DNA from: Albidovulum litorale
GTDB taxonomy: Bacteria > Pseudomonadota > Alphaproteobacteria > Rhodobacterales > Rhodobacteraceae
DNA length: 64,000 nucleotides
Reading direction: 5' to 3'
Assembly (NCBI RefSeq): GCF_025751495.1
Contig: NZ_JAOWKZ010000005.1
Span: 1-64,000 of the forward strand
Below are positions 24,516 through 45,757 of this stretch, piece by piece (the first letter of the stretch is position 1; the number at the start of each line of letters is the position of its first letter). Made by a program: the position numbers and the translations under genes. The notes below the pieces were generated by a model that saw nothing but the letters and a program-made list of their open reading frames with translations, did not search any database and had not been told where the DNA came from.

Positions 24516-24727
24516 ATGTCCGGTCAGGGGACGCCGGAATAGCAGAACTTCGGCGCTTCGAATGGCGGCTGTGGGCCGTTCTTGTCGAATTGACTGGACT
24601 TCGCGCGGCGCCAGAGCGGTAGTGACACCAGGCCCGATCGAAAGGGTCACAGCTCCGCCCGGGTGCCCCCGGGCTCATGTCAGTAGCAGGGGCTGGGTGC
24701 TCCTGTGACCTAGGACAGGAGATGACC

Positions 24728-25045
24728 ATGACCACCGATATCACCAATGCCAAGCCCCGGCGGCGTAAGGCGCCCGCAAAACGTGCAACCAAGAAAGATC
24801 AGCTGACCAGGATACTCCGCAGCGCTACGGGCGCCGATGTCGCTGCGATCCGCGCGAAGCTTGGCTGGCAGGCCCACACGGTGCGGGCGGCGCTGACCGG
24901 CTTGCGCAAGGCGGGCCACGAGCTAGTCGCGGAGAAGCCGGGGCAGGGGAAGCCAACCCGCTACCGGATCGTCGGAACGCCAGCCGCCACGGTGTCACCG
25001 GACCCCGCAGCCACGGATGCCCGCGAGACCACCGATGCCCGGTAA
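24728..25045 (+). CDS. DUF3489 protein, copy 1 (predicted small DNA-binding protein)
   Basis: A 105-residue protein with a basic Lys/Arg-rich N-terminal tail and a compact helical domain (KKDQLTRILRSATGADVAAI, then WQAHTVRAALTGLRKAGHEL) that reads as a winged helix. The end is KPTRYRIVG followed by a flexible Pro/Ala tail. ATG 24728 is preferred over ATG 24722 because GGAG is six bases upstream of it. DUF3489 proteins are regularly found with DUF2924 and large recombinases. A regulatory or DNA-targeting role is inferred. Confidence 0.8.
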   Translation: MTTDITNAKPRRRKAPAKRATKKDQLTRILRSATGADVAAIRAKLGWQAHTVRAALTGLRKAGHELVAEKPGQGKPTRYRIVGTPAATVSPDPAATDARETTDAR

Positions 25046-25445
25046 GGCCGATCCGGATCGCTCGGGTCTCCAGCAGGACTGGGAGGAGGCTTTCGGGTCT
25101 CCTCCGCCCGCCTATGCTTCGGTCGCCTTCCTGCGTAAGGCGCTCGCCTATGAGGCGCAGGTGAAACGTCATGGCGGACTGCCTGCCGCCACCCGGCGCG
25201 CGCTCAGCCAGATTGCGTCGGGCAAGCCGGTCGAAGAGGCGGCGCGGAGACGGTTGCGGCCCGGCGCGCATCTGGTGCGGGACTGGAACGGGCGGAGCTA
25301 CCAGGTCGAGGTGCAGGAGAAAGGCTTCCGGCTTGATGGCAGGACCTGGCCCTCGCTCTCGGCCATCGCGCGGCACATCACCGGCACTAGCTGGTCGGGA
25401 CCGCGCTTCTTCGGACTCAATGATCGAACCGGAGGCAAGGGATGA
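25035..25445 (+). CDS. DUF2924 protein, copy 1
   Basis: A 136-residue protein matching DUF2924: WEEAFGSPPPAYASVAFLRKA and YEAQVKRHGGLP near the start, then GAHLVRDWNGRSYQVEV and the C-terminal FRLDGRTWPSLSAIARHITG and WSGPRFFGL. ATG 25035 is chosen; ATG 25017 is an in-frame alternative. It overlaps the end of the DUF3489 gene, and its stop overlaps the recombinase start as ATGA, so the three are translationally coupled. Its biochemical role is unknown. The strict linkage suggests an accessory factor for recombination. Confidence 0.85.
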   Translation: MPGKADPDRSGLQQDWEEAFGSPPPAYASVAFLRKALAYEAQVKRHGGLPAATRRALSQIASGKPVEEAARRRLRPGAHLVRDWNGRSYQVEVQEKGFRLDGRTWPSLSAIARHITGTSWSGPRFFGLNDRTGGKG

Positions 25446-27079
25446 AGAAGATCCGCTGCGCCATCTATACGCGGAAGAGCTCTGAAGAGGGACTCGAGCA
25501 GGAGTTCAACTCGCTCCATGCCCAGCGGGAAGCCTGTGCTTCCTACATCGCCAGTCAGAAAGCCGAGGGCTGGGCATTGCTGCCGACGCAGTACGATGAT
25601 GGCGGGATCTCGGGCGGCACGCTGGAGCGCGCGGCGATGCAGCAGCTCTTGGCCGATGTCGATGCCGGCCTTGTTGACCAGATCGTGGTCTACAAGATCG
25701 ATCGGTTAACCAGGTCGCTCGCCGACTTCGCGAAGATCGTCGAGCGGCTGGATGCAGCGGGGGCCTCCTTCGTCTCGGTGACGCAGAGTTTCAACACCGC
25801 AACCAGCATGGGGCGGCTCACGCTCAACATGCTCCTCAGCTTCGCCCAGTTCGAGCGCGAAGTGACGGCCGAGCGGATCCGCGACAAGATCGCGGCTTCG
25901 AAGCGCAAGGGGCTCTGGATGGGCGGCTATGTGCCTCTGGGTTACGACGCGGATGGACGGACGCTGCGGATCAACGAGACCGAGGCGAAGACGGTCAGGA
26001 CGCTTTACAATCTCTATCGCGACTACGGTACGGTTCGTGACGTCAAGGAGGCGGCAGCGGTGCATGGCCTTCGGTCGAAACGCAGGACCGTTGCGGATGG
26101 TCGCATGCGGGGCGGGATACCTTTGGATCGCGGTCACATCCATCACATCCTGACGAACCCGCTCTATGCCGGGAGGATCCGCCACAAGGGGCAGGTTCAT
26201 GAGGGTCAGCACCCGTCGATTATCGCTCCGGATATCTGGGAAAGAGTGCAGGAACAACTGACCGCCGAGGCCAGAAAGCCCCGCGCCCGGAAGGCATCGT
26301 CCACCCGCTCGCTACTCTGCGGCAAGATCTATGATGAAACCGGCGACCGGCTCACGCCCTCGCATTCGAGGACCCGGGCCGGTGCACGGTTACGCTATTA
26401 CATCTCGCACCGTTTGGCGGCGCGCAGCGGCGAGGCGGGTGTCTCCGGATGGCGGCTGCCAGCGGAAGAACTGGAGGCTCGGGTTGAGGCGGTCGTTCGC
26501 GGGATGTTGTCTGACGTCACGCTGGCCGGACGCTTGATGACCGCGCCGGGCGCGGATGAGATCGCGCGGCTGCGGTCCGGGTTGGAAGGTCTGGCCGATG
26601 CGGGGAGAGCCGATCTTCTGAACCTGGTCGGGCGCGTCGACATTGCGCCAGGGCACTTGATGCTCGAACTCGATGCAGCTGCGCTCGCCGGGCATCTGGC
26701 GCTGGACGTGGACCGACTGGATGCAGATGCACTCGCGAAGTCCGTGCCGTTCCAGCTGCGCAAGCGGGGAGTGGAGACAAAGCTGGTGCTGGCCGATGCC
26801 CCCGCCGGGCGCGATGACCTCCTGATCCACAACATCGCCCGTGCGCATCACTGGTTCAGTGAGATAGTGGCGGGACGCAGCTTCGACGCGATCGCCACGG
26901 CCGAAGGCATCTCGAAGCGCCGCATCCAGCAGATGATCGATCTCGCCTTCCTTGCCCCGGACATCATCCGCGATGTCCTCGACGGCAAGCAGCCGCACGG
27001 ATTTACGTCCGATTGGTGCCTGCGGCACCCGCTCCCGTCGGACTGGTCAGAACAACGAACGCTGCTCGCTTCGCCCTGA
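25442..27079 (+). CDS. Large serine recombinase, copy 1
   Basis: A 545-residue resolvase/invertase-fold recombinase. The catalytic Ser lies in the AIYTRKSSEEG segment (about 7-17). Conserved Arg residues are in KIDRLTRS and the E-helix start FAQFEREVTAERIRDKI. The Recombinase domain follows (HIHHILTNPLYAGRIRHKG), then a zinc-ribbon region that looks degenerate because only one Cys is visible near SLLCGKIYD, and a C-terminal HTH-like part (GISKRRIQQMIDLAFLAP). It should catalyse site-specific integration and excision between att sites. It is highly similar to the copy at 43,870-45,510. Confidence 0.93.
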   Translation: MKKIRCAIYTRKSSEEGLEQEFNSLHAQREACASYIASQKAEGWALLPTQYDDGGISGGTLERAAMQQLLADVDAGLVDQIVVYKIDRLTRSLADFAKIVERLDAAGASFVSVTQSFNTATSMGRLTLNMLLSFAQFEREVTAERIRDKIAASKRKGLWMGGYVPLGYDADGRTLRINETEAKTVRTLYNLYRDYGTVRDVKEAAAVHGLRSKRRTVADGRMRGGIPLDRGHIHHILTNPLYAGRIRHKGQVHEGQHPSIIAPDIWERVQEQLTAEARKPRARKASSTRSLLCGKIYDETGDRLTPSHSRTRAGARLRYYISHRLAARSGEAGVSGWRLPAEELEARVEAVVRGMLSDVTLAGRLMTAPGADEIARLRSGLEGLADAGRADLLNLVGRVDIAPGHLMLELDAAALAGHLALDVDRLDADALAKSVPFQLRKRGVETKLVLADAPAGRDDLLIHNIARAHHWFSEIVAGRSFDAIATAEGISKRRIQQMIDLAFLAPDIIRDVLDGKQPHGFTSDWCLRHPLPSDWSEQRTLLASP

Positions 27080-27293
27080 TCGCCCCCTCTTACACCTCGC
27101 ATCGCGAAAAGGCCGGACGCAGACTTTGGCTGATTTGCTCGCTCACACTCGGCGCCCTGGCGGTCTGCGAAAGCGACCGCGCCGCGCAAGCCGCGGAGAA
27201 CGCGCGACTATTAGAGGTGCACCTCGCACCGTCTCGATGTCAGGAAGTGGGTGGCTGTGCTGGCAGTCCCGGGCTAGCTGGTCTCTGCCTTCG

Positions 27294-27444
27294 AAATCCC
27301 TGTTTACAGGGAATTAACAGGGAAATCGGCGCGCTTTGGGGTCTTTGGGGCAAATTCCGCGTTGATTAATGGCGTCTTTTCAATAGTTTGGCAGCGATTT
27401 CCCTGCGCGTGACAACAGGGAATTCGAAATCCCTGATCAGGGAA
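27294..27444. repeat. Cluster of CAGGGA/TCCCTG palindromes
   Basis: The words TCCCTG and CAGGGA occur repeatedly as inverted pairs: CCCTGTTTACAGGG (27298-27311), CAGGG (27318-27322), TCCCTG...CAGGGAATT (27400-27424) and TCCCTGATCAGGGA (27430-27443). They can form short stems separated by AT-rich spacers. I recall similar non-coding repeats near mobile elements in Rhodobacteraceae. They lie just past the right end of recombinase copy 1 and before the IS3 element. Confidence 0.6.
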
Positions 27445-27673
27445 GTTCGCAGGCAAAAACAGGAAACGGATCAGGCGGAACAGGGATCACTCGTCGCCGG
27501 TTGGGCTACGTTACGTTACCTGAGACCATTCCGGGCACAGAATTAGTTGACCGATCGCATGTTCATGATATGTTCTAACGTGATCGATTGTCTGACGTCA
27601 GCGCCAATGGGACAGTTTAGGGTGATTTGATAAGAGAGGGTTTCTGGCACATCGTAACCACCAAGGAGTGGAG

Positions 27674-28048
27674 ATGAGACAGAAACCCGGAACCAAGCAG
27701 AGCCACGGCGAGAAAGTCGTCAAGGACATCCGTCGAGCGACCCGCAAACAGTATTCGGCCGAAGAGAAGATCAGGATCGTGCTGGACGGCCTGAAGGGCG
27801 AGGACAGCATTGCCGAGCTGTGTCGCCGCGAGGGTATTGCCCAGAGCCTGTATTACAGCTGGTCCAAGGATTTCCTCGAGGCCGGCAAGAAGCGTCTGGC
27901 GGGCGATACGGCCCGCGCGGCGACATCTACCGAAGTTAAGGATCTGCGCCGTGAGGCCCGCGATCTGAAGGAAGTCGTTGCCGAGCAGGCACTGGAGCTG
28001 CGGCTGCTCAAAAAAAGCATGATCGCGGATGGGGAAGACGACGAATGA
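27674..28048 (+). CDS. IS3-family transposase OrfA (HTH protein)
   Basis: A 124-residue protein. It has a HTH_Tnp_1 domain (YSAEEKIRIVLDGLKGEDSI, AELCRREGIAQSLYYSWSKD) followed by a coiled-coil with the repeating DLRREARDLKEVVAEQALEL pattern. It recognises the inverted repeats and multimerises with the integrase part. ATG 27674 follows AAGGAG. The stop overlaps the orfB start. Confidence 0.93.
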   Translation: MRQKPGTKQSHGEKVVKDIRRATRKQYSAEEKIRIVLDGLKGEDSIAELCRREGIAQSLYYSWSKDFLEAGKKRLAGDTARAATSTEVKDLRREARDLKEVVAEQALELRLLKKSMIADGEDDE

Positions 28049-29025
28049 GGTATCCCGCATCCGAGAAGCTTGAGGTCATCCGCTTGGTCGAAGGATCTCA
28101 TCTGCCTACCAAGCGCACGCTGGACAAGCTCGGCATCCCCAGAACGACCTTCTACCGCTGGTATGATCGGTATCTGTCGGGCGGCCCCGAAGCCTTGGAA
28201 GATCGCAGCCCCAGGCCGTCGCGGGTCTGGAATCGTATCCCGGAACCTGTTCGCGAGAAGGTCAAGGACCTGGCCCTGCAGGAAAGTGAGCTGTCACCGC
28301 GCGAGCTGGCCGTGCGCTTCACCGACACAGAAAAGTATTTTGTGTCAGAAGCCTCCGTGTATCGTATCCTCAAATCCTACGACCTGATCACCAGCCCGGC
28401 CTACGTGGTTCTGTCAGCGGCTGACGAGTTCCGGGACAAGACCACACGGCCGAACCAGCTTTGGCAGACCGACTTCACATACCTGAAGGTCATCGGTTGG
28501 GGCTGGTTCTATCTCTCGACGATCCTCGACGACTACAGCCGCTACATCATTGCATGGAAGCTCTGCACGACGATGAGGGCTGGCGACGTGACCGACACGC
28601 TGGACCTGGCACTGCAGGCTTCAGGCTGCGATCAGGCGACGGTCCTGCACAAGCCGCGGCTGCTCTCGGACAACGGCGCCAGTTACATCTCGGGCGAACT
28701 GGCCGACTGGCTGGAAGACCGGCAGATGGGTCATGTCCGCGGTGCCCCGTATCACCCGCAGACCCAGGGCAAGATCGAACGATGGCACCAGACCCTGAAG
28801 AACCGCATCCTGCTGGAAAACTACTACCTGCCTGGCGATCTCAGCCAACAGATCGACGCCTTCGTCGAAAACTACAACCACCGACGCTATCACGAGAGCC
28901 TGCAGAACCTCACACCGGCCGACGTCTACTTCGGACGCGGTCAGACCATCCTGCAAAAACGAGAAAGGATCAAACGGAAGACCATCGAAACCCGGCGCTT
29001 GCTTCACCGCAAACCCGCCGCATAA
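28045..29025 (+). CDS. IS3-family transposase OrfB (DDE integrase)
   Basis: A 326-residue rve-type integrase. It starts with a helix-turn-helix (LPTKRTLDKLGIPRTTFYRW), then the catalytic core: LWQTDFTYLKV (first Asp), LSDNGASYISGEL (second Asp) and QGKIERWHQTLK (Glu). Coupling is by an ATGA overlap with orfA rather than an obvious frameshift heptamer. The gene looks intact, so the element may still be active. Confidence 0.94.
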   Translation: MRYPASEKLEVIRLVEGSHLPTKRTLDKLGIPRTTFYRWYDRYLSGGPEALEDRSPRPSRVWNRIPEPVREKVKDLALQESELSPRELAVRFTDTEKYFVSEASVYRILKSYDLITSPAYVVLSAADEFRDKTTRPNQLWQTDFTYLKVIGWGWFYLSTILDDYSRYIIAWKLCTTMRAGDVTDTLDLALQASGCDQATVLHKPRLLSDNGASYISGELADWLEDRQMGHVRGAPYHPQTQGKIERWHQTLKNRILLENYYLPGDLSQQIDAFVENYNHRRYHESLQNLTPADVYFGRGQTILQKRERIKRKTIETRRLLHRKPAA

Positions 29026-29060
29026 TCAAACCAACCAGATGCGCCAGACCCTCTCCTAGA

Positions 29061-29576
29061 TCAGGCCGCTAACTGGCCCAAAAACTCTGACGACGGACAC
29101 TGCTTGCACGTATCACGCGCCGAAATACCAGCTTCCGGCGAATAAAAGTCGGTAGAAACCACGGGAACGGTCTGCCTGAGTGCCTCCGCCATGCGGCAGC
29201 CAGTGCCGACATACGCCTCCTCCAACGACGCGCGGAGCAGTTTCTTGCTGTCTGCTGTCGGCGCCGAGAGACGAACGAAAAGCAGGTCGTTGTTTTCCTC
29301 ATCGTGGATCGTGTCTATGCGTTGCCCGATACGATCAAGATCGGTCACGATCGCTGCATCCGCCTCTCGGATCACATGCACGTGGCGATCACGTTTATCC
29401 AACCCAAGGAGGGTAAGGATCTCGGTCTTCCTCGCTTCTGGGAAGCCTGCTTCCTCTGATAGAATGACATAGACGGGCATAAGGTCGGACGCACTGAAAA
29501 TGGCGCGGTATCCGACCAAGACAATCAAAAGAACCGTCAGGATCACCAGACTCGGTCGGGTGAGGCCGCTCCACAT
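29061..29576 (-). pseudogene. Membrane-anchored hypothetical protein, 3' end replaced by the IS3 element
   Basis: ATG 29576-29574 (MWSGLTRPSL) starts a protein with one N-terminal membrane helix (LVILTVLLIVLVGYRAIF, about 9-27) and an alpha/beta-looking soluble part with VYVILSEEAGFPEARK and RHVHVIREADAAIVTDL. The last codons before TAG fall inside the IS right end (29,099), so the natural C-terminus is missing. No family is recognised. Confidence 0.55.
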
Positions 29577-29606
29577 TTCAAAGCCCTGTTTGGCGCAGAA
29601 GCGCAA

Positions 29607-30002
29607 ATGTCCGATGTGGTTTAGTCAAACCCGATCCAACGGTTGAGAAAAGCTACCCGATCAGCATATTCGGATGCTACAGGCACTACAACGAAGACAG
29701 AGCCCGGGAATGAAACCGGGCGCAGCAATGCCGGGACGCGGCAGCAAGGGATCGAGCCGCCGATCTTCGCACTGCAGCAGACGAATACGCTCCGGGCTGT
29801 GCCTGGCCTGAGAGGCCGGCCCTGAGCCGACCTTGAGCCAATCTGCGACGAAGGTCCGGAGGGAGCCCTTCTCAGACATTGGGGTCAGGCGCAGCATTCG
29901 TCCTGCATGACGGCAACAAGACACTTGCCGCGTTTTGACCGAAGGTCCGCCCTGCGACTGGCCGGGCCTCCGATCAGCAAGAGCGCTACGCCCTCTGCAG
30001 CG
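29607..30002. other. Gene-free stretch with a short hairpin
   Basis: There is no credible gene. A small inverted repeat, GCCCGG (29702-29707) with CCGGGC (29716-29721), is present. Words such as gcaacaagacacttgccgcgttttgaccgaaggtccgcc (29,913 onward, in part) have the mosaic style seen at 1,600-1,900 and 42,840-43,003. Confidence 0.3.
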
Positions 30003-31679
30003 TCACTGGCAGCACGGGATGACGCGCGGGTCGTAGACCGGTTGCGAGTTCGGCACGCCACCCCCGAAATCCTGCGGAACGGTGTAGAAGGCCTGTGTCC
30101 ATGCATGGACGTCCAGTGGTTCGAACAAGCTTTCCTGCGGCTCGTTGCGGATCGGCTGGCCTGGGTTCACGCCGCGCAGCACCTCGCCGCCATCGACCAC
30201 CACCACGCCGTTGACGATCACGAAGGGGATGCCGGAGGACGGCAGATTGCCCTGCGCGTAGGTGGCGTTGTCGGTCACTGTCTCCGGGTCGAAAATCGTG
30301 ATGTCGGCGATCATGCCCTCCTGCATCCGCCCGCGCTCCTGCATCGCTTTCAGCCCCGTAAGACCGAGCGGGCGCGCCGAGTTCCAGCTGAGCTGGGCGA
30401 CGCTCTGCATCAGGGGGATGCCGTTCTCGCGCCCCATGCGCAACGTCCGCGCGCAGCTGCCGGCCCCGCGTGGGTGACTGTTGGGCAGATCCTCGAAGGG
30501 CGTATCCCATGTGATGCTGTCGTCGAGGATCGGCATCCCGTCTGACGCGATCGCCACGTCAGGCAGCCGCAGCCAGTCGACAATGGCGTTCTCAGGCATC
30601 TTGTAGGCCAGCACCAGCCGCGCGGGCTCGCGCGCCATCATCTCCGTGCGGCTCTCCTGCGTGTACCATTCCCCGGTCAGCGCATCCTGGATGGTCTCCT
30701 CGTACTTGTAGCCGAGCTGATCTACCCAGATCTCCGGTTCGAGGAAGACGGCGTTCAGCGCCGTCGAGCCCGCCGCGTAGGGGTAAAGCTCGCCCCACAT
30801 GTTGTGGCCTTGCGCGCGCATCCGCACCAGCAGCTCGTGCACGAGGTTGTACCCGGGGTTGTTAAAGTGACAGGCGATGGCGGGCGCGCCGAGCGCGGCG
30901 GCGTTCGCAAGCATCTCTTGGATACCGTTCGCTTCGCTCGTGTCCGTGCCGGGCGTGTAGCGGAAGTGGAAGGCGCAGGGTCTTCCATAAGCTGCGGCGA
31001 TGCGCTGGATCTCGAAGACCTCGCGTGCCGATGCGCCGTCGCGCATGTAGCCGAGCGTCGAGCCGATGCCGACTGCGCCCGCGGCGAGGCCCGTATCGAG
31101 CACGCGCAGGATCTCGTTGCCCTTGTCGAGGTCCGGGCGGGTATGGGACCAGCCAGACTTGTCCGAGCCGCGATGGTTCATGGCCTCAGGCGCATCGATC
31201 GTCGTGATGCCGTCGAGCACCAAGGTACGCGCGAATTCGTGGCAGCTGGCGCAGCCGTAGTTGATCTGGTTGGTCCCGGTGCGCTCTGCGTACCAGTCAT
31301 CCACCAGCGTTCCGAGCGTCCCGATCTCGAGGTCCATAACCGTCGTTCGCCCGTCGAGCAGTGCGAGCTTGTTGCCCATGGGCCGGGGCCAGTGAAAATG
31401 CGTGTCGATGAAGCCGGGCGCGACGACATGGCCGCTGGCGTCGATCTGGCGGCCGCCCTCGAGCGGTTCGACTGTGATAGCGGCTATCCGACCCGCGCGC
31501 ACGCCGACATTTGCGACCTGGTCAAACCCGGTCTCGGGGTCCATCACCCGCCCGCCAATGATCACGAGGTCGAATGGCTCCCTCGTCTGCGCCAAGGCTC
31601 TACCCGCGGACCCAATGGCGGCCGCACCCGCGACAACACCAAGGTTGAACTCCCTGCGGGAGATCTCGTTCTCGCTCAT
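30003..31679 (-). CDS. Exported amidohydrolase, D-aminoacylase (N-acyl-D-amino-acid deacylase) type
   Basis: A 558-residue protein with a twin-arginine signal (ISRREFNLGVVAGAAAIGS, Ala-rich cleavage region near 30). It then follows the urease-like amidohydrolase plan: FDLVIIGGRVMDPETG, GHVVAPGFIDTHFHWP with metal ligands His94 and His96, and ADITIFDPETVTD at the C-terminus. The spacing fits amidohydrolase family 3/D-aminoacylase. ATG 31679-31677 lies behind GGAGAG. It is the third of three exported hydrolase genes on this strand, after two penicillin-recognising-fold enzymes, suggesting joint action on D-amino-acid-containing or lactam compounds. Confidence 0.85.
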   Translation of the reverse strand: MSENEISRREFNLGVVAGAAAIGSAGRALAQTREPFDLVIIGGRVMDPETGFDQVANVGVRAGRIAAITVEPLEGGRQIDASGHVVAPGFIDTHFHWPRPMGNKLALLDGRTTVMDLEIGTLGTLVDDWYAERTGTNQINYGCASCHEFARTLVLDGITTIDAPEAMNHRGSDKSGWSHTRPDLDKGNEILRVLDTGLAAGAVGIGSTLGYMRDGASAREVFEIQRIAAAYGRPCAFHFRYTPGTDTSEANGIQEMLANAAALGAPAIACHFNNPGYNLVHELLVRMRAQGHNMWGELYPYAAGSTALNAVFLEPEIWVDQLGYKYEETIQDALTGEWYTQESRTEMMAREPARLVLAYKMPENAIVDWLRLPDVAIASDGMPILDDSITWDTPFEDLPNSHPRGAGSCARTLRMGRENGIPLMQSVAQLSWNSARPLGLTGLKAMQERGRMQEGMIADITIFDPETVTDNATYAQGNLPSSGIPFVIVNGVVVVDGGEVLRGVNPGQPIRNEPQESLFEPLDVHAWTQAFYTVPQDFGGGVPNSQPVYDPRVIPCCQ

Positions 31680-31866
31680 GTTGTTCTCTCCTCTCCATTT
31701 CGGTTGGGCGATGCCGACGGCGACGGCACGCGCCGCAGTCAGGTTCTTTGGGTTTGGTTCCTGCATTGAGCGTCTCATGTCGTCGATGCAGGGCGTTCGG
31801 TGGAGAGTTCGATCTGCGCTGTGCAGGATCGCCTCTCCACCTGATCCGTGGCTCTTGTCGCCCCGG

Positions 31867-33342
31867 TTATTGGAAGACAGTACCGGAGAGGTCGAAGTCG
31901 TCGACCGCCCCGTCGCCCCGAATGAAGATCCGGTGGTTGAATCGCACGTAGTTGAGTTCGCCAGACGGATCTTCGAGCAATTCGCCAAGGGCTCCCTCGT
32001 TCGGGCCTTCGGTGATGATAAAATAGCCATCAGCCGTATTGGCCACATTGGCCGGCGCGGGATCCGATCCGCTGGTCAATGCGGAGAACTGCACAAACAC
32101 ATATTTGTCGCCCTCTTTGCGGATCTCGATGTTTTGGGAATTCCCCTTGAAGACGCCGACGAAGGGATCGAGCACAGCCGGATCAACGCCCGCTGCGACC
32201 GGAGAGTCGGCCTCGATGCCCGTGAAGGCTTTGACCATTGAGTTCGCAATTTTTTTATAGGCCTCGGCTCCGCGATCGCTGTGGACCAAAACCACCACGG
32301 CAAAGTCGCGATCCGGGATCAGCTGCAGAAAAGACCGCGTGCCGGGCCAGTTCCCCCCGTGGCTGGGGCTGGTGACCCCGTCGTAGTCATGGACGAACCA
32401 TGTCAGCCCGGTAAAGTCGCCGGCCTCAGCCTCGACTGCCGGAGCGTGGGCATAGTCCAGTGCTTCTTCGGACAGCAGCTGGTTCCCGGCGGCGTCCTTG
32501 CCGTCCAGCTGAAAGCGGGCGTATTTCAGCATGTCGCTAACCGTAGACCGGAGCGCGCCGGAGGCTGCGGACTCTCTGATCAACGGAATGTAGTACGGCT
32601 TGAGATCATTGATGTTGCCTTCGCCGTAGATCGGCGGATGACCCCATGCGTAGTTTTCAGCCGGCGGAGTGGGGTCGTAGTTAAAGGATGACGAATCCAT
32701 GCCGAGAGGAGTCAACAGGTTCTCTTCGATCAGGTTCTCGATCGGCTTTCCGCCGGCATGCGACACCACATGGGTCGCGAAGGTGATGCTGGTGTTGTTG
32801 TACATCCAGGTTTGATCGAACGGATAGAGCTGCTCGACGTAAGCCGCCTGGAGCATGACCTTCTCGCTGATCGACCCGCCCGGAGGAACACGAAGGAACC
32901 CATGGTCGCCATACCAACCAGCGCGATGGTGGAACAGGTCAACGACCCGCGCTTTCGACGTTGCGTCGGGATCCGCGACCCTCCACCACGGTAGGAGGTC
33001 GACGACACGCGCGTTCAAATCCAGCTCGCCCCGTTCGGACAGCTGCAGGGCCACTGTCGACAGGAAGGTTTTGGTCACAGAGCCAATTTGAAATTGCGTA
33101 TCAGGGGTAACGGCCTCGTCGGTGCCTACCTTCGTGATGCCGAGGCCGGCGCTGTAGGTGTTGGGCCCATGGATGACCCCGACACCAAGCCCCGGGATGT
33201 TCATTTCCTTGATCAGTTCAGCAGTTTCGGCGAGGACCGCATCAAAGGTCGCCTGGCCCTCTTCCTGTGTCATGGCCTGCTGTGCGAGTGCCGGTGTGAC
33301 GCACAGTAGCGACGAAACAAGCAGGGCAGGTAGTGGTTTCAT
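31867..33342 (-). CDS. Exported serine beta-lactamase-like hydrolase (class C/PBP-like fold)
   Basis: A 491-residue protein with a signal peptide (LPALLVSSLLCVTPALA, cleavage near 20). Catalytic Ser88 and Lys91 lie in GSVTK, Tyr181 in MYNNTS, and the third motif reads SHGGNWPG. A C-terminal beta-domain of about 110 residues follows (DPFVGVFKGNSQNIEI). Such proteins act as D-aminopeptidases, esterases or penicillin-binding hydrolases rather than true resistance enzymes in many cases. ATG 33342 gives a good signal peptide; ATG 33372 is an alternative. It lies between the amidohydrolase and the class A beta-lactamase. Confidence 0.85.
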   Translation of the reverse strand: MKPLPALLVSSLLCVTPALAQQAMTQEEGQATFDAVLAETAELIKEMNIPGLGVGVIHGPNTYSAGLGITKVGTDEAVTPDTQFQIGSVTKTFLSTVALQLSERGELDLNARVVDLLPWWRVADPDATSKARVVDLFHHRAGWYGDHGFLRVPPGGSISEKVMLQAAYVEQLYPFDQTWMYNNTSITFATHVVSHAGGKPIENLIEENLLTPLGMDSSSFNYDPTPPAENYAWGHPPIYGEGNINDLKPYYIPLIRESAASGALRSTVSDMLKYARFQLDGKDAAGNQLLSEEALDYAHAPAVEAEAGDFTGLTWFVHDYDGVTSPSHGGNWPGTRSFLQLIPDRDFAVVVLVHSDRGAEAYKKIANSMVKAFTGIEADSPVAAGVDPAVLDPFVGVFKGNSQNIEIRKEGDKYVFVQFSALTSGSDPAPANVANTADGYFIITEGPNEGALGELLEDPSGELNYVRFNHRIFIRGDGAVDDFDLSGTVFQ

Positions 33343-36041: not shown

Positions 36042-36042
36042 A

Positions 36043-37194: not shown

Positions 37195-37355
37195 CTGCCG
37201 CAACGTCTGAGCATCAACGAGCGAACTCCGGGTCATATCTTAAACGTAAACGCAATGGTTGCGTTAAAGGACCCCGCAACGAAGGCGTTTGACCTCTTGC
37301 CGGTCAAACCATCGGACATCATCACGGATCATGCAACTAAGACAACAGAGCGGTT

Positions 37356-37832: not shown

Positions 37833-38347
37833 GACTGGATCCTCCTGAAGTTAAACCCGTTTCAACGCCGCTTTTGCGTCGCGCGACATCAAGAGCTGCT
37901 GAATCGCAGCAGCCTAAGACGTCCTTGTAGTACGGTTTTGTTCACACCACGCCCCCCGAATGCCTTAGGCACGGCAAAGAACGTATAGATCCGAGCCACG
38001 ACTAACAGCGGCTAACAGACAATAGTAGGCAGAAATTTGACGCGCTGCAGCCGGGAAATAAGATCAAATTCCGGACGAATGCAGGACCGGATGTTGAACC
38101 AGAGCCTCGACTTCCTTGGTTGCCTTCTGCCCTTTTTCTGGCCGCATGGCAGGATCAGACAGGAGCCGAAGCGGCTCTGGCGCTGTCTCAGATCTTGTGC
38201 TTGAACTTGCTGCCAGTCCCCGGTGCCAGAGCGGGTTGGGTTCTGGACCACAGTGTATTCCCGGCGATCCTCGGGACCGCTTTCGCGGGCGGGATCGACA
38301 TGCTGCTGTCGATTATCAAATACGTCATACACTGACCTGCTGCGCGG
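37833..38347. other. Gap without a supported gene
   Basis: A plus-strand frame ending at 38,335 is open for over 90 codons and partly hydrophobic (QILCLNLLPVPGARAG), but it has no good start, no ribosome site and no recognised family. A minus-strand frame overlaps it. I regard the stretch as non-coding or decayed. Confidence 0.3.
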
Positions 38348-39403
38348 CTATTCATTCATCGCAGGTCGAAGGCGCCAAAGGTTTTCACCCTGCGCGACGA
38401 GGCCTTGCCGCGCGTCGGCGCGTTCGCCCGCATGCAGCAGTCGGCGCAGATCTTCGCCGACGGCTCGACTGTAGATGTGATAAAGATGACCCGTCGGTCC
38501 TTCGCTGGGAAGGTCGCTGAGGTCGATCACCTCGACGCCCGCAAGTTGGGAGAAATCGTTTCCCGTCTCCCCAAGCCGAGGGTAGCCATGCAATTGCGCC
38601 GAAAGCGCTAGAGGTCTGTCGCCGCTCGTCACGTAGACTGTGATGCTCTTCGCGATGAGGCGGAACCGGGGAAGCATGCGCTCGAAGATCGCAAAATCCA
38701 TGTCCGGCGCCAGAAGCACGACATGGCCAAGCTGGATATCCGGATGCCGATTGGCCACTTCGGCCAGCGCCAGAACGACACCCCGAGCACCAAGGCTGTG
38801 CCCGATGACATCCACGTTCCCGGCGCCGAAGCGCCGCTCCAACTCAATGATCGTGTCCGTAATGTCCGGCAGGCTCCAGTAAAGATCGGCTTCGTCATGG
38901 GTGTAGTAGGCCGGAGCACCGTCCGAGGGCTAACTGAACCACAGGAACCGCCCCACAAGGTCGGCGTTCTGCTGCAGCAACGCGGCGCGGCGGCAGCCTT
39001 TCTCGAAGCTGATATAGTATCCGTGGACATAGAGCGCCCGACCACGTGCGCCGGCCGTTCCTTCTAGCCGATCCAGGATGGCGCCCGGGTCCGCTTCCTC
39101 CACCGTCTGAACGCGGAGGAGTTCCTCGCGCAAGAAATTCGGAGCCATGTCGGCAAGGGGCGCCAGAACGCCAAGGTCGAGCTCTTCGACGCGGCATGCA
39201 CCCGCTTTCAGATCGCTGCGTTCTCCTCCATAAAAGTCAGCTGGATCATCCGATCCTGTCCTGTTGCGAAGCGTGAAATAGGGGAATTCCAAGGCCTGGA
39301 TCTCCGTCTGGGCCTTCGACGGCACGGGGAAGGCGCATGACAAGGCGCCGAGGCAGAGCATGACGCCCATCAGGCGGGCGAAGGATGGTGCGCACATTTT
39401 CAT
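38348..39403 (-). pseudogene. DUF900-type alpha/beta hydrolase broken by one nonsense codon
   Basis: ATG 39403-39401 opens a signal-peptide-like N-terminus (LMGVMLCLGALSCAFPVPSKA). The frame then shows LYVHGYYISFEKG and FLWFS, followed by TAG (38932-38930), and continues in the same frame with PSDGAPAYYTHDEADLYWS, IGHSLGARG (nucleophile elbow) and VVLLAPDMD to 38,348. The conserved family reading is FSWPSDG, so a single TGG-to-TAG change explains the break. Everything else looks intact, which points to recent inactivation. Confidence 0.85.
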
Positions 39404-39633
39404 ACCCGATATGTACCTCAGCCGCGCTTGCCGAAAAAAGGACCCTGGCGTTTGCACCATGCACTTTCACCATGAAGGCACAGGCTCTCGCACATGCGGT
39501 GCACCACATTGGCATTTTCGAATATAGCAGTGGGAAAATAAATGATTGCGTCGCTTCGCAAGTCTTTTGCGCGTCGGGCGGCCTCGTGACAAGGTCGGAA
39601 CCGAGACGTCGAACCCAGGGTAAAAGAGGCAAC

Positions 39634-41310
39634 ATGAACAACGGGGAAATAGCCAGGATCATCGGCAAGGTCTCGGTGCCGTGCTTGCTTCTCGGGCTGC
39701 TCTTCTTTGCGGCCTCGCTGACCCCGTCGCTCATCCCGCGCGGACCGGCTGTGCAAGGACTCCTCGGCGGGCTTGTCATGGCGATCGGCTATTTGATCGG
39801 CCAGATCGGTGCGTTGCTCTGGCGGGCGGCCGATCTTCCGCAGTTGTCCGGGCGGCCGGCAAACGTCCTGACAACGGTGATCGCGCTTCCACTCCTGGCG
39901 GTCTTTCTTTGGGTACTTGGATCCAGTCTGCGGTGGCAGAACGACATCCGCGAAAAGGTGGGCATGGAAGACGCGGATGCGCTTCAACTCACCACAATCC
40001 TGTTGATCGCGTTTGCGACCTTTGCCATCGCTTTCGCCCTTGGACGCGCTGTCGCCTCACTGTTTCGCCTGATCCGATCAAGGTTCTATCGCATTATGCC
40101 ACCGCGGCGCGCCAATGTGCTGGGGCTCATCGCGGTCGTGCTGATTTTGTTCGTGGTTACGCGCGATGGCATCGTCGATGAGGTCGTAACGGGCCTCGAC
40201 GAAAGCTACGAAGCCGCCCAGGAGCTCTTCGAGAATGCCCCGCCTCCCCCCGGCGACCCACGCATGACCGGCAGCGCAGAGTCCCTGATCGATTGGGCAT
40301 CCATGGGCAAGCCCGGGCGGGACTTCATCACCTCCGGCCCAACATCCGAGGATATCTCGGCCTTCACTGGTCGGCCCGCGCTTGATCCGATCCGCGTCTA
40401 TGTCGGGCGCGCCAATGGCGAGACGCCCGAGGCGCGGGCCGAACTGGCGCTTGCCGAACTGATCCGGCAGGGTGCGTTCGACCGCGACGTTCTGATCGTG
40501 GCAAGCCCCACCGGAACCGGCTGGATGGACCCGGGATCCCACGATCCGGTCGAATACATGCATGGCGGCGATATCGCCACCGTCGCCGCACAGTATTCCT
40601 ACCTGCAATCGCCGCTGGCTTTAATCCTGGAGACAAACACCGGGCTGGAACAGGCGACCGCGCTTCAGGATGTGGTGCATGGGTACTGGAAGACGTTGCC
40701 CGTCGATACGCGGCCCCGTCTATACGTTCACGGGCTGAGCCTGGGCGCCTGGTCGTCGATGCATGCCACGAACATGTTCCGACTGCTCGACGATCCCATC
40801 GACGGCGCCTTCTGGGCCGGTCCGCCCTTTCCCTCTGCCTTCTGGAAACACGTCCAGAACCAGCGCAATCCGGGCACACCCTGGGTCCTGCCGGAGATCG
40901 GGGACGGGTCACTGATCCGCTATGCGTCCCACACGGCGGATGCGTCCGAGGCCGCGGCGGAATGGGGGGACATGCGCATCGTCTTCCTGCAATATTCAAG
41001 CGACCCGGTCGTATTCTACGACCCCCGGTCGCTCTGGCGGGCGCCGCCCTGGATGCGGGATCCGTCGGCCGAGGACATGACGGAGCACTTCATCTTCATG
41101 CCCGTCGTGACGCAGTTCCAGCTGGCGCTCGACATGGCCCTGTCCTTTGGCGCGCCGCCCGGACACGGCCATGCCTACTTCGCGGAGGACTATATAGGGC
41201 CCTGGGTTCAGGTCACGGCACCCTCGGATTGGACACCCGAAGAAACACAACGGCTGAAGGCGCATTGCGATGTCGGCTACCAGCTCGGGTGCGCCAACCG
41301 GCAACCGTGA
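39634..41310 (+). CDS. Multi-pass membrane alpha/beta hydrolase (Abhydrolase_9 type)
   Basis: A 558-residue protein. Four or five membrane helices occupy about 10-195 (for example LLLGLLFFAASLTPSLIP, VLGLIAVVLILFVVTRDG). The C-terminal hydrolase domain has RVYVGRANGETPEARAEL, the nucleophile motif HGLSLGAWSS and a late His in the GHGHAYF region. This matches the PF15420/PF10081 architecture of unknown substrate, perhaps lipid or cell-envelope esters. ATG 39634 follows AAAGAGG. It stands alone on the plus strand. Confidence 0.85.
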   Translation: MNNGEIARIIGKVSVPCLLLGLLFFAASLTPSLIPRGPAVQGLLGGLVMAIGYLIGQIGALLWRAADLPQLSGRPANVLTTVIALPLLAVFLWVLGSSLRWQNDIREKVGMEDADALQLTTILLIAFATFAIAFALGRAVASLFRLIRSRFYRIMPPRRANVLGLIAVVLILFVVTRDGIVDEVVTGLDESYEAAQELFENAPPPPGDPRMTGSAESLIDWASMGKPGRDFITSGPTSEDISAFTGRPALDPIRVYVGRANGETPEARAELALAELIRQGAFDRDVLIVASPTGTGWMDPGSHDPVEYMHGGDIATVAAQYSYLQSPLALILETNTGLEQATALQDVVHGYWKTLPVDTRPRLYVHGLSLGAWSSMHATNMFRLLDDPIDGAFWAGPPFPSAFWKHVQNQRNPGTPWVLPEIGDGSLIRYASHTADASEAAAEWGDMRIVFLQYSSDPVVFYDPRSLWRAPPWMRDPSAEDMTEHFIFMPVVTQFQLALDMALSFGAPPGHGHAYFAEDYIGPWVQVTAPSDWTPEETQRLKAHCDVGYQLGCANRQP

Positions 41311-41369
41311 TCTGGCGCGTCATGGCGCAGGTGCCCGGCTCTCGCGACGCCTGAAAACGGCCACGGCTG

Positions 41370-42116
41370 TCATTCGGGGGTTTCGACAAAATGCAAGACG
41401 GTGCGCCCGTCGAAATCCGTCATCACAAGACCCGCACCATAGCGCACGTAATCCGAAACCTGCGCGAGCGCCGCGAGGAAACGCCGCTCCTGCGCCTCTA
41501 TCTCATAGGGGCAGGCCATCATGGTCCCGGCTATGTTTTCGAGAAAGGCAAGCCCGAGGCCGGATGGCTGCATCTGTCCCCGGAACCGATTGCAGCCTCC
41601 AAAGGCTGAGACATTCATCTCGTCGTCGATCATGAGCGTGGCCGGATCATCGTTGGGCCATGCTTGGCCAAAGACCTCCGTCACGGTCCAAGCCACACCC
41701 GAGATGCGGCGCGGCACCGCGACGTTCGTACCCGTGTCGGTCACCATTGTGAGCACGATATTGAACGCTGGTTGATCCGGCCCGGCCGGGAGCTCAAGCG
41801 TCTTGGTTGCACGGAACTGCTGCCGTCCATCCGGTGACAGGATACCCGGACTCACCGTCGACGCCCCGCGGGTCATAGCTCAGGGAAACGGTCATCGGGA
41901 CTTCGGTCATCTCGAAACCCTGCGAAGCTATGGCACCGACGTGCCCGTCGGCGTTCACGACCTCAAGGAGCCGCACGTCGAGTTGCGCTACGGGGGAAAC
42001 GCAATGCGTTCCCGAAAGGAAACCATCACCGAGAGCGTTTTCATCTGCGCCTCGGCGAATGTTGGGGCTGCCAAGAGCCACGAGAACAGTGACAGAACGC
42101 CGGAAAGCCCTCGCAT
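41370..42116 (-). pseudogene. META-domain envelope protein with two frameshifts
   Basis: Reading from ATG 42116 (MRGLSGVLSLFSWLLAAPTFA, a signal peptide) the protein reaches FRERIAFPP and TAG. A second frame carries on as VAQLDVRLLEVVNADG to LSYDPRGVDGESG. A third frame supplies ILSPDGRQQFRATKTLELP and the META domain (DEMNVSAFGGCNRFRGQ, FLENIAGTMMACP, YVRYGAGLVMTDFDGR). Together they reconstruct one protein of the YbaY-plus-META type of Rhodobacteraceae. The shifts lie near 41,985 and 41,845. It cannot be expressed as one protein. Confidence 0.8.
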
Positions 42117-42199
42117 GTTCTACATCCTTGCCCAAGCAACCCAGATTTTCGGAAACCGTTTCATTGTCCGCATATTCAAGTCTACGAGACTCATTTCGA

Positions 42200-42530
42200 G
42201 ATGGGTAGCTTACTCGCGCCCGTTTTGGTTTCACGCAATACCGCATGCTGTAGCAAAAGCACAAAGGAAGGAGTTGCTCGCATGTTTGCGCCTGCGGCCG
42301 CATCACGGCGTAGTCGCTCAGTATCTCCTCGATCGCCGATCCCTCGGGCAGCAGAGCCAATTGCTGAGCCGCCCGCGCCTGGAACTCCCTGCTGTGTTCG
42401 ACGACAGGCGTAAAGGCCCAGAGATTGCCAAGGTCGGAAGCGCCCGTTGCACAGTCGGTCAGCGAGATCGTCGCGAGAACGAGGACGACGCGCCGCCGCC
42501 TCGAGCATCCGTCGTCTTATGGACACCGCT
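42200..42530 (-). pseudogene. Decayed small lipoprotein gene
   Basis: One minus-strand frame reads VVLVLATISLTDCATGASDL (lipobox Cys in LTDC), then FTPVVEHSREFQARAAQQLA and LLPEGSAIEEILSDYAVM. This is a coherent small lipoprotein of a type I recall from Rhodobacteraceae. No ATG, GTG or TTG precedes the hydrophobic part before a stop. At its 3' side the frame runs on into the neighbouring pseudogene. It is scored as a remnant. Confidence 0.5.
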
Positions 42531-43003
42531 CAAATCGACCTCCTTCTTTCCGACATCAATGTGTGGCCGTTCAGCGCTAAGGCGAGATCAATTCACTGGC
42601 CTGTTGACCATATGATCGTCAGGGAACTCGCATACGAAGGTTGATTGCTAAAGAGCGCGACGGGACGCGAAATCACGCGATCGAAACATGAACATATTTT
42701 GCACACGACTTTCCGCAAGCTCTTGAAATCCTGTCAAAATCGTTACCATCCATCACCGGACAAATTTTACTGCGGTCCGATAGCAGCTCTTTGGCCAAGT
42801 TCAGACCTCGTAGTTAGAGCAAAGATCGGCTGTTTCGAGAGCCGACCTGCGGCAGCGCAGAATAGAACACGGTTCTGGCTCCGCCGCGGTGTCCGCTTTT
42901 TGAACGTCGGCCCGACAGTCTCGCGACCGCAGCGAAAGTCGGCTTTCCCGAATTCCGAACGCTATTTTGCGGGCGCGGCGAACTTCCGGTTTCCGCCCTT
43001 CCG
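42531..43003. other. Gene-free stretch with mosaic repeat sequence
   Basis: No supported gene. The last about 160 bases (42,840-43,003) are dense in words like cgcagcgaaagtcggctttccc and gcggcgaacttccgg (parts shown), the same flavour as 1,600-1,900. They run directly into the left end of recombinase copy 2, which begins at 43,004. Confidence 0.4.
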
Positions 43004-43146
43004 GTCGAATTGACTGGACTTCGTGCTGCGCCAGAGCGGTAGTGATACAGGCCCGATCGAAAGGGCCACGTCTCCGCCCGGGGTTGTCCGGGCTCATGTC
43101 AGTAGCAGGGGCAGGGCGCTCCTGTGACCTAAGACAGGAGATGACC

Positions 43147-43473
43147 ATGACCACAGTGACCACCAACGCAAGACCCCGGCGCAAGGCTCTCGCGAAGCCA
43201 CCCGCCGAACGTATCACCAAGAAGGGCCAATTGATCCGTATGCTCGGCAGCGCGGCGGGCGCCGATGTCGCTGCGATCAGCGCGAAGCTTGGCTGGCAGG
43301 CCCACACGGTCCGGGCGGCGCTGACCGGGCTGCGCAACGCCGGCCATGATGTCGTTGCCGAGAAGCCGGGGCAGGGGAAGCCAACCCGCTACCGGATCGT
43401 AGGAACGCCAGCCGCCACGGTGTCACCGGACCCCGCAGCCACGGATGCCCACGAGACCGCCGATGCCCGGTAA
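43147..43473 (+). CDS. DUF3489 protein, copy 2
   Basis: A 108-residue version of the protein at 24,728, with a more diverged basic N-terminus (RPRRKALAKPPAERITKKGQ) and an almost identical winged-helix core (WQAHTVRAALTGLRNAGHD) and tail. ATG 43147 has GGAG six bases upstream. It is the first gene of the coupled trio. Confidence 0.8.
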   Translation: MTTVTTNARPRRKALAKPPAERITKKGQLIRMLGSAAGADVAAISAKLGWQAHTVRAALTGLRNAGHDVVAEKPGQGKPTRYRIVGTPAATVSPDPAATDAHETADAR

Positions 43474-43873
43474 GGCCGATCCGGATCGCGCCAGGCTGCG
43501 GCAGGACTGGGAGGAGGCTTTCGGGTCTCCTCCGCCCGCCTATGCTTCGGTCGCCTTCCTGCGTAAGGCCATCGCCTATGAGGCGCAGGTGAAACGTCAT
43601 GGCGGACTGCCTGCCGCCACCCGGCGCGCGCTCAGCCAGATTGCGTCGGGCAAGCCGGTCGAAGAGGCGGCGCGGAGACGGTTGCGGCCCGGCGCGCATC
43701 TGGTGCGGGACTGGAACGGGCGGAGCTACCAGGTCGAGGTGCAGGAGAAAGGCTTCCGGCTTGATGGCAGGACCTGGCCCTCGCTCTCGGCCATCGCGCG
43801 GCACATCACCGGCACTAGCTGGTCGGGACCGCGCTTCTTCGGACTCAATGATCGAACCGGAGGCAAGGGATGA
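43463..43873 (+). CDS. DUF2924 protein, copy 2
   Basis: A 136-residue protein that differs from copy 1 at only a handful of positions, all in the first about 30 residues (ARLRQD for SGLQQD; RKAI for RKAL). From YEAQVKRHGG to the end the two are identical. Its stop overlaps the recombinase start. The abrupt change from diverged to identical sequence marks the edge of a conversion tract. Confidence 0.85.
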   Translation: MPGKADPDRARLRQDWEEAFGSPPPAYASVAFLRKAIAYEAQVKRHGGLPAATRRALSQIASGKPVEEAARRRLRPGAHLVRDWNGRSYQVEVQEKGFRLDGRTWPSLSAIARHITGTSWSGPRFFGLNDRTGGKG

Positions 43874-45510
43874 AGAAGATCCGCTGCGCCATCTATACGC
43901 GGAAGAGCTCGGAAGAGGGGTTGGAGCAGGAATTCAACTCGCTCCATGCGCAGCGGGAAGCCTGTGCCGCCTATGTCGCCAGCCAGAAGGCGGAAGGCTG
44001 GGTGCTGCTGCCAACGCAATACGACGACGGCGGGATTTCGGGCGGCACGCTGGAGCGCCCGGCCATGCAGCAGCTTCTCGCCGATATCGATGGCGGGTTG
44101 GTCGATCAGATCGTGGTCTACAAGATCGACCGGCTCACCAGGTCGCTCGCCGACTTCGCGAAGATCGTCGAGCGGCTGGATGCAGCGGGGGCCTCCTTCG
44201 TCTCGGTGACGCAGAGCTTCAACACGGCAACCAGCATGGGGCGGCTGACGCTCAACATGCTCCTCAGCTTCGCGCAGTTCGAGCGCGAGGTGACGGCCGA
44301 GCGGATCAGGGACAAGATCGCGGCCTCCAAAAGGAAGGGGCTGTGGATGGGCGGCTATGTGCCTCTGGGTTACGACGCCGACGGGCGGACGCTCAAGATC
44401 AATCCCGAAGAGGCGAAGGCGGTGCGGACACTTTACGATCTCTACCGCGACTACGGCACGATCCGGGAGGTCAAAGTGGCTGCAGCGGTGCTGAGCCTTC
44501 GGTCCAAAAGCAGGACAAACGCGGGTGGCCGCATGCAGGGCGGGATCCCCTTTGATCGCGGTCACATCCATCACATCCTGACGAACCCGCTCTATGCCGG
44601 GAAGATCCGCCACAAGGGACAGGTCCATGATGGTCAGCACCCGGCCATCATCGACCCGGATGTTTGGAGGGCGGTGCAGGCGCAACTGACCGTCGAGGCA
44701 AGGAAACCCCGCGCCCGGAAGGCATCGTCCACTCGTTCGCTACTCTGCGGCAAGATTTATGATGAAACCGGCGACCGGTTCACGCCCTCGCATTCCCGGA
44801 CCCGGGCCGGTGCACGGTTACGCTATTACATCTCTCACCGTTTGGCGGCGCGCAGCGGCGAGGCGGGTGTCTCCGGATGGCGGCTGCCAGCGGAAGAGCT
44901 GGAGGCTCGGGTCGAATCCATAGTCCGGGATCTGCTTGCTGATGCTTCCGTGCCTGCACGCCTCGTGACCGCGCCGGACACCGATGAGATCGCGACGCTG
45001 AGGTCCAGGCTGGTGGAGTTGAGCGGCGAGGCCGGTCGAGCGGATCTTCTGAACCTCATTGGCCGCATCGACATTGTGCCAGGGCACTTGATGCTCGAAC
45101 TCGATGCAGCTGCGCTGGCCGGGCATCTGGCGCTGGACGTGGATCGGTTGGACGCAGATGCACTCGCGAAGTCAGTGCCGTTCCAGCTGCGCAAGCGGGG
45201 AGTGGAGACAAAGCTGGTGCTGGCCGATGCCCCCGCCGGGCGCGATGACACCCTGGTCCGCAACATCGCCCGCGCGCATCACTGGTTCGGGCAACTCCGG
45301 GCCGGGCGCAGCTTCGACGAGATCGCGGAGTCCGAGGGCACATCCAGGCGTCGCGTTCAGCAGATGATCGATCTCGCCTTCCTTGCCCCGGACATCATCC
45401 GCGATGTGCTCGACGGCAAGCAGCCGATCGGGTTTACCTCCGACTGGTGCCTGCGGCACGAGCTTCCGTCCGACTGGTCAGAGCAACGAACGCTGCTCGC
45501 TTCGCTCTGA
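43870..45510 (+). CDS. Large serine recombinase, copy 2
   Basis: A 546-residue paralogue of the recombinase at 25,442. The catalytic N-terminal domain (AIYTRKSSEEG; KIDRLTRS; FAQFEREVTAERIRDKI) is nearly identical. The DNA-binding middle and the segment after EELEARVE differ more, for example SIVRDLLADASVPARL against AVVRGMLSDVTLAGRL. Both copies look intact. Differences in the DNA-binding region could give them different att-site preference. This copy lies 173 bases from the tRNA-Gln gene. Confidence 0.93.
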   Translation: MKKIRCAIYTRKSSEEGLEQEFNSLHAQREACAAYVASQKAEGWVLLPTQYDDGGISGGTLERPAMQQLLADIDGGLVDQIVVYKIDRLTRSLADFAKIVERLDAAGASFVSVTQSFNTATSMGRLTLNMLLSFAQFEREVTAERIRDKIAASKRKGLWMGGYVPLGYDADGRTLKINPEEAKAVRTLYDLYRDYGTIREVKVAAAVLSLRSKSRTNAGGRMQGGIPFDRGHIHHILTNPLYAGKIRHKGQVHDGQHPAIIDPDVWRAVQAQLTVEARKPRARKASSTRSLLCGKIYDETGDRFTPSHSRTRAGARLRYYISHRLAARSGEAGVSGWRLPAEELEARVESIVRDLLADASVPARLVTAPDTDEIATLRSRLVELSGEAGRADLLNLIGRIDIVPGHLMLELDAAALAGHLALDVDRLDADALAKSVPFQLRKRGVETKLVLADAPAGRDDTLVRNIARAHHWFGQLRAGRSFDEIAESEGTSRRRVQQMIDLAFLAPDIIRDVLDGKQPIGFTSDWCLRHELPSDWSEQRTLLASL

Positions 45511-45682
45511 TTGTACCCTCTCACACCTCGTATCGCGAAAAGGCCGGACGCAGACTTTGGCCAATTTGAGCGTCCGTTCTCGCTGCCCTGGCGGTCTGTG
45601 CAAACGCCCCTGCCGCGCAAGTCGCGGAAAACGCGCGACTATCCGGGGTCAACCTCGCACCGTCTCGAATTGCGGAACTGGG

Positions 45683-45757
45683 TGGCTGGGGCGGTAGGAT
45701 TCGAACCTACGGTGCGCGGTACCAAAAACCGGTGCCTTACCACTTGGCTACGCCCCA
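45683..45757 (-). tRNA. tRNA-Gln (anticodon TTG), CCA encoded
   Basis: Read on the minus strand it begins TGGGGCGTAGCCAAGTGGTA and ends with CGCCCCA, G, CCA. The acceptor arms TGGGGCG and CGCCCCA pair fully. The anticodon loop TTTTGGT gives TTG. The T-loop is TTCGAAT between GTAGG and CCTAC. The outermost anticodon-stem pair looks mismatched (C opposite C). The 75 bases include the 3' CCA. Its 3' end is shared with the right end of recombinase module copy 2, as expected for an attachment site in a tRNA gene. Confidence 0.95.

Follow-up and report, generated by a model that had tools for sequence, protein, structure and literature searches.

Two copies of a three-gene module, encoding a DUF3489 protein, a DUF2924 protein, and a large serine recombinase, lie in direct orientation in a stretch of 64,000 nucleotides of Albidovulum litorale DNA (contig NZ_JAOWKZ010000005.1, positions 1 to 64,000; hereafter the window), and they raise the question of which DNA such a module moves and where it inserts. 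An earlier note made from the sequence alone had described the two copies, their common orientation, gene content, and gene overlaps, and alignment together with Pfam searches bears out this description. The overlaps are equal in both copies, with 29 nucleotides between DUF3489 and DUF2924 and 4 between DUF2924 and the recombinase, and both recombinases have a Resolvase domain (PF00239) followed by a Recombinase domain (PF07508), as is characteristic of large serine recombinases. We consider it very probable that the three genes are the integration module of islands that insert at the 3′ ends of transfer RNA (tRNA) genes, here tRNA-Gln(TTG), and that two such islands are stacked in the window. 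The sequence comparisons behind this proposal show a module beside a convergent tRNA 3′ end, a shared core, recurring arms, a bounded relative with a single module, and tRNA-Gln flanks that are free of islands.

A feature that the earlier note had overlooked is the tRNA-Gln(TTG) gene on the reverse strand, the 3′ end of which adjoins module copy 2; the tRNA starts six bases before the limit of similarity of this copy. The two copies do have the same limits of similarity, as had been claimed, but past their common end the DNA differs. In copy 2, the recombinase stop codon is followed by 172 base pairs (bp), the sequence TGGCTG, and then tRNA-Gln; in copy 1, it is followed by 172 bp, TGGCTG at 27,252, and then the end arm TGCTGGCAGTCCCGGGCTAGCTGGTCTC, with no tRNA. 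A 20-mer across this inner core has one exact site in the genome and one at 3 mismatches, which is not above the control pattern. The DNA between 27,252 and 45,683, which we refer to as island 2, therefore has the same core at both ends, as expected of an island and as also found for the island of the relative G009, and on its copy 2 side it abuts the 3′ end of a tRNA gene that is whole, as expected of insertion at a tRNA. Given the match between the two TGGCTG sequences, the mobile unit most likely comprises one end arm, the cargo, and one module, copy 2, followed by the tRNA (27,252-45,682; 18,431 bp), rather than the interval 24,584-45,688. Copy 1 would represent the tRNA-side end of the next, older island (island 1).

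The same arrangement recurs within the genus. Of 22 genomes compared (G000-G021), 11 have a module that terminates next to a convergent tRNA-Gln (G000, G001, G005, G006, G007, G009, G010, G011, G012, G013, and G016), and G020 additionally has a module remnant at tRNA-Gln. The distance from stop codon to tRNA, measured in 11 loci that include the G020 remnant and not G006, is exactly 172 bp in seven (G000, G005, G009, G011, G012, G013, and G016); the other values are 170 bp in G007, 204 bp in G010, 654 bp in G001, where a degraded core lies between, and 553 bp for the G020 remnant. Four arrays (G000, G001, G013, and G033) have a module, core, and arm inside and a further module at tRNA-Gln. The arm that follows copy 1 (TGCTGGCAGTCCC...) is found again at island ends in relatives: the inner modules of G001, G013, and G033 are also followed by it, and it forms the outer end of both the G009 island and the G013 array. 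An arm of the pattern TGG[CT]-NN-N6-CAGTC follows modules that have no adjacent tRNA in G000, G001, G013, G033, L090 (apparently G001:C11), and L140, and is present at one mismatch in L299 and by eye in L292. The G009 island is bounded at both ends, extending over 22.2 kilobases (kb) from the arm at C3:280,694 to the tRNA end at 302,889, and contains one module and other cargo; in G010, the 20 kb fetched contain one module, and the cargo is partly common with that of island 2.

For one of the arrays, DNA resembling the site before insertion was found. Through TGGCTG, the outer flank of the two-module array in G013 can be aligned with the 65 bp next to an intact tRNA-Gln of G019 (53 of 71 columns; score 58, as compared with at most 14 in 500 shuffles) and with a second G019 contig end, which stops just past TGGCTG (120 of 164 columns). 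The same flank lies beside intact tRNA-Gln genes in G018 and G003, but is diverged there in approximately the last 40 bp before the core. Because the G013 flank aligns with the tRNA-Gln flanks of these three genomes, we judge from the alignments that the array most likely occupies a site that formerly joined flank and tRNA at TGGCTG. The unoccupied site found, through the core in G019 and further out in G018 and G003, is that of the G013 array and not that of the window's species or island, and a probe from the outer flank of the G009 island had only short, weak matches in the 22 genomes besides itself. As a separate observation on stacking, L181 (7,287-7,740) and L068 (2,700-5,850) contain modules or remnants separated by a few hundred bp, in which the core is followed by degraded 3′ fragments of tRNA-Gln, and these close stacks are possibly module-only elements. 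L082 (2,202-9,123), an element of G015 at tRNA-Gln, has a similar end arm and no recombinase match and lies between repeats of another arm type.

In the mechanism that we posit, integration of a circular island into the tRNA gene would take place at the shared TGGCTG, with this recombinase as the presumed catalyst and the crossover probably inside the six bases. The island arm would provide the last bases of the tRNA, and the gene would remain whole for this reason. Island 2, lying next to the tRNA, could then leave by site-specific excision as a circle of 18,431 bp, with copy 1, the end of island 1, left beside the tRNA. The results support the earlier suggestion of an integrating element that has accessory genes and is in principle able to carry neighboring DNA.

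How general is placement at tRNA genes? A scan of 84,980 species genomes identified at least 585 confirmed relatives of the recombinase, and since the best 80 loci were kept, the set analyzed leans to close relatives. A convergent tRNA is present within 1 kb downstream in 50 of the 67 loci in which the sequence extends this far past the match, and a same-strand tRNA in 0 of 67; no tRNA lies within 2.5 kb upstream in any of the 80 loci, although 23 of these have less than 2.5 kb of sequence there. Overall, 53 of the 80 loci are at a tRNA, with distances from stop codon to tRNA of 162-792 bp and with 17 anticodons and 11 amino acids represented. The motif [AG][CG]TG-N2 touches the tRNA end in 22 of 49 nonredundant arms, as compared with a mean of 0.63 and a maximum of 6 over 43 shifted positions, and it is found in 15 of 34 non-Gln arms. 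A second conserved block (about CNCNGAAA), located in the recombinase-side arm 53-60 bp before the tRNA end, is a candidate accessory site. Using tblastn (E 1e-3), we detected DUF2924 in 78 of the 80 loci and DUF3489 in 57, such that the strict linkage to the recombinase asserted for both in the earlier note describes DUF2924 better than DUF3489. Some loci begin at contig ends, and the 23 loci in which DUF3489 was undetected may reflect such starts or diverged copies; otherwise, DUF3489 is not always needed. Searches of plasmids gave six records with DUF2924.

Several observations weigh against our proposal, both at the junctions and across the family. The dyad symmetry around the core is weak (7/16 in the window, random mean 4.2), the left end of island 1 was not found in pattern scans of the window and genome, which gave no second junction beyond chance, and chance matches have to be reckoned with for the arm pattern, which gave 16 hits (repeats of one place counted) versus 5 for the reversed control. 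Both G019 junctions are contig ends that are not identical to one another (63/71), and neither a circular form, an excision product, nor an empty site in the same species was observed. In the survey, a tRNA within 1 kb is lacking in 17 of 67 loci; L090, L115, and L140 have a core junction instead and L167 has a tRNA at 2.8 kb, leaving 13 unexplained, and Rfam at the gathering threshold identified no RNA gene in these 13 loci or in 11 loci of relatives (24 in total). Among viral contigs, a convergent tRNA is present in 5 of the 43 loci with 500 bp downstream and a same-strand tRNA in 1, which may reflect trimming or circularity of these contigs; the arm motif occurs in 7 of 53 viral loci, versus 2, 2, and 3 for three control patterns. 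Nine related recombinases that have DUF2924 and another C-terminal part lack a tRNA in the approximately 0.2-1.2 kb after the gene. The phage WO of Wolbachia is reported to insert in a magnesium chelatase gene or intergenic DNA, and the word tRNA is absent from the main text of the phage WO paper. Finally, a subfamily at 57% identity (L291, L293, and L295-L297) lies away from tRNAs, the tRNA-Arg calls in L293 and L297 falling inside DUF2924. The downstream DNA of some members of this subfamily resembles restriction-modification genes by eye.

The divergence of the two module copies bears on other explanations of the locus. DNA identity between the copies is 98% for DUF2924 and 86-87% for DUF3489 and the recombinase, and synonymous divergence (dS) is 0.04 for DUF2924, 0.35 for DUF3489, and 0.40 for the recombinase. 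Given the latter two values, the pair is not a fresh duplication, and the much lower dS of DUF2924 than of its neighbors in the module suggests local gene conversion (25,017-25,445 and 43,445-43,873). A protein tree of nine recombinases left both window copies unresolved with a G001 copy and did not place them as sisters. The composite unit proposed earlier, in which the 15.7 kb framed by the two modules would travel with them in the manner of a composite transposon, would account for the direct repeats in the same orientation; however, its junction, joining 24,583 to 45,689, is not supported. The junctions that match are the TGGCTG sequences at 27,252 and 45,683, where copy 2 ends inside a tRNA and copy 1 runs up to the end arm of an island. 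The bounded single-module island of G009 and the age and inequality of copies that the tree does not pair point the same way. We rejected this reading on the junctions and give it almost no credence. Relatives that keep the intervening genes with just one module, the case that the earlier note had itself set against a composite unit, are largely matched by what was found, namely a single module and other cargo in G009, one module and partly shared cargo in G010, and the intervening cargo without a module in G001.

If the module alone were mobile and had landed twice beside a tRNA, the cargo would be unrelated local DNA. The two modules of G012:C14, of which the second is broken and which are separated by ~440 bp that include a tRNA-like core, and the copy of the cargo at G001:C17 without a module beside it would agree with this, but the copy 1 arm is seen again at the far end of large islands and arrays (in G009, in G013, and inside G033) and some of the cargo is common with the G010 island, and we regard this possibility as distinctly unlikely. 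It is very improbable that the serine module is a passenger of another integrase, such as a tyrosine type using the same tRNA-Gln: the recurrence of the module at tRNAs of 17 anticodons, together with the arm motif, argues otherwise, and the 14 open reading frames (ORFs) scanned in island 2 include no tyrosine integrase, even though G015, G018, and G021 carry other element-like sequence at this tRNA with repeated TGGGGCA/TGCCCCA (by eye). Loss of the segment by homologous recombination between the copies, rather than by the recombinase, could draw on 2.7 kb of similar DNA in direct orientation, in which DUF2924 is 98% identical as after gene conversion. This would account for deletion and not for the tRNA placement, core, or arms, and as an explanation of the locus we deem it unlikely. 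Site-specific insertion of islands at the tRNA would account for these features and remains our preferred reading.

The 14 ORFs covered by the Pfam scan between the copies, which left out shorter ORFs, include no relaxase or conjugation genes (Table 1). Rich in insertion sequence elements and pseudogenes, as this segment had been described, looks overstated for one transposase pair, which we take to be IS3-like, and one fragmentary DUF900 gene. Window positions 29,801-43,009, a cargo block of 13.2 kb, are 99% identical to another place, G001:C17 (L170 and L171), where the block is bordered by a transposase and, on its other side, by the contig end; the 24 kb fetched there contain no module. 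Given that the DNA beside tRNA-Gln is 91% identical between the window genome and G001, the 99% identity of the cargo indicates recent transfer. Besides α/β hydrolases, the island carries a class A β-lactamase-like gene (PF13354) at 33,488-34,579 on the reverse strand, and a neighboring block (~31.7-34.4 kb) has a 91% copy in the same genome (C11:26,579-29,323).

Table 1. Features of the two modules and of island 2 in the window
Feature	Position	Strand	Basis or remark
Module copy 1, probable tRNA-side end of older island 1	24,584-27,257	+	Aligned with copy 2; end arm after it, no tRNA
DUF3489 copy 1, predicted winged-helix protein	24,722-25,045	+	PF11994 E 7e-19 on longer ORF; fold model from copy 2 homologue
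DUF2924 copy 1	25,017-25,445	+	PF11149 E 2e-38
Large serine recombinase copy 1, 545 amino acids	25,442-27,079	+	PF00239 and PF07508; 88% to copy 2
Recombinase-side arm of island 1	27,080-27,251		172 bp from stop codon to core, as in copy 2
Core TGGCTG between island 1 and island 2	27,252-27,257		
Distal end arm of island 2 (TGCTGGCAGTCCCGGGCTA...GGTCTC...)	27,258-27,486		Matched 74-90% in G001, G003, G009, G012, G013
Transposase pair (HTH_Tnp_1 and rve)	27,668-29,025	+	Pfam
Cargo: amidohydrolase, serine β-lactamase-family hydrolase, class A β-lactamase-like protein (PF13354)	30,003-34,579	-	
Cargo: AraC regulator, two DUF900 hydrolases (one fragmentary), Abhydrolase_9, META-domain protein	34,759-42,360		
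Module copy 2, probable tRNA-side end of island 2	43,004-45,688	+	Aligned with copy 1
DUF3489 copy 2	43,141-43,473	+	PF11994 E 3e-18
DUF2924 copy 2	43,445-43,873	+	PF11149 E 6e-39
Large serine recombinase copy 2, 546 amino acids	43,870-45,510	+	PF00239 and PF07508; PHROG integrase 1e-95
Recombinase-side arm of island 2	45,511-45,682		GGAACTG-N2 before tRNA end
Core TGGCTG, last six bases of tRNA-Gln	45,683-45,688		Common to copy 1
tRNA-Gln(TTG), intact, probable insertion target	45,683-45,757	-	ARAGORN

The two accessory proteins may act in DNA binding or regulation. The fold of DUF3489, modeled for the homologue from copy 2, is a predicted winged helix with three helices and a wing (mean pLDDT, the predicted local distance difference test, of 75); Foldseek matches it to ArsR/MarR-type proteins with a probability of ~1.0 and a best E of 0.014, and 28 of 51 DUF3489 members have similarity to PaaX at E <= 1. 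Judging from this model, DUF3489 may be a directionality factor or a regulator. The N-terminal part of DUF2924 is helical and its C-terminal part β-α, and a search of this protein against the PDB gave no sequence match and no fold match (best E 0.35). Weak similarity to RAMA (PF18755) is found in 24 of 59 aligned DUF2924 members at E <= 1 (best 8e-6), the window protein not being among them, and a partial match between RAMA and DUF2924 is also stated in a Wolbachia paper (PMC11342252). Judging from this weak similarity, DUF2924 may be a DNA-binding cofactor.

We raise as a possibility, with more doubt than confidence, that a broad class among the serine recombinases linked to DUF2924 is specialized in tRNA genes. 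In such a class, the arms would be kept (...ACTG-N2-TGGC on one side and N6-CAGTC... on the other), the dinucleotide NN of the core between them would follow the tRNA (TG for Gln, GG for Ser, and AG where the core is the tRNA-Trp end), and DUF2924 and DUF3489 would be dedicated partners through which tRNA 3′ ends become usable and a new island can insert beside an occupied one, building stacks. Tyrosine integrases are the enzymes classically associated with the 3′ ends of tRNA genes. A serine-integrase lineage that is widespread at these sites would, with its 17 anticodons, offer a natural series for studying shifts of site choice between tRNA genes; two uncharacterized Pfam families, DUF2924 and DUF3489, would be placed in a context open to experiment, and island ends in alphaproteobacterial genomes may become easier to call by means of the recurring arms. 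In the literature on tRNA and serine integrases that we searched, mostly open texts and with the TIGER and Islander tables outside the search, we found no description of this tRNA habit, and the parts for which we did not find a description are its breadth, arms, and stacking.

The module has features in common with several known systems. With the large serine integrases of TP901-1, A118, and phiC31, which are also its sequence matches in the PDB, the recombinase shares the Resolvase and Recombinase domains. These integrases usually use sites in protein genes or intergenic DNA, and to our knowledge they have no DUF2924 or DUF3489 partners. Tyrosine-integrase islands of the Islander/TIGER kind insert at the tRNA 3′ end, restore the gene, and stack at one site, typically with a longer tRNA identity; they differ from the present islands in the unrelated chemistry of their recombinase. 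In phage WO, a relative of DUF2924 lies immediately upstream of a homologous recombinase, as here, and yet the phage has another target; DUF2924 alone therefore does not make a tRNA specialist. The closest described case is AcaML1, an Acidithiobacillus phage in which a DUF2924-like gene (40.9% identity over 74% of the query) overlaps a serine recombinase that is 47.5% identical to the window recombinase over 82%. AcaML1 differs in being a phage, in having its recombinase annotated as two subunits, and in having a separate annotated excisionase. Its attB is given in the published description as 'srrA', with 10-bp repeats (PMC3826726). In the AcaML1 record, TAAATGGTGG is present at both ends, one of which lies beside sequence that by eye resembles the T-arm of a transfer-messenger RNA (tmRNA). 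We presume that 'srrA' stands for ssrA, the tmRNA gene. Taken together, the module and attB of AcaML1 show that the tRNA-type habit proposed here is not without precedent.

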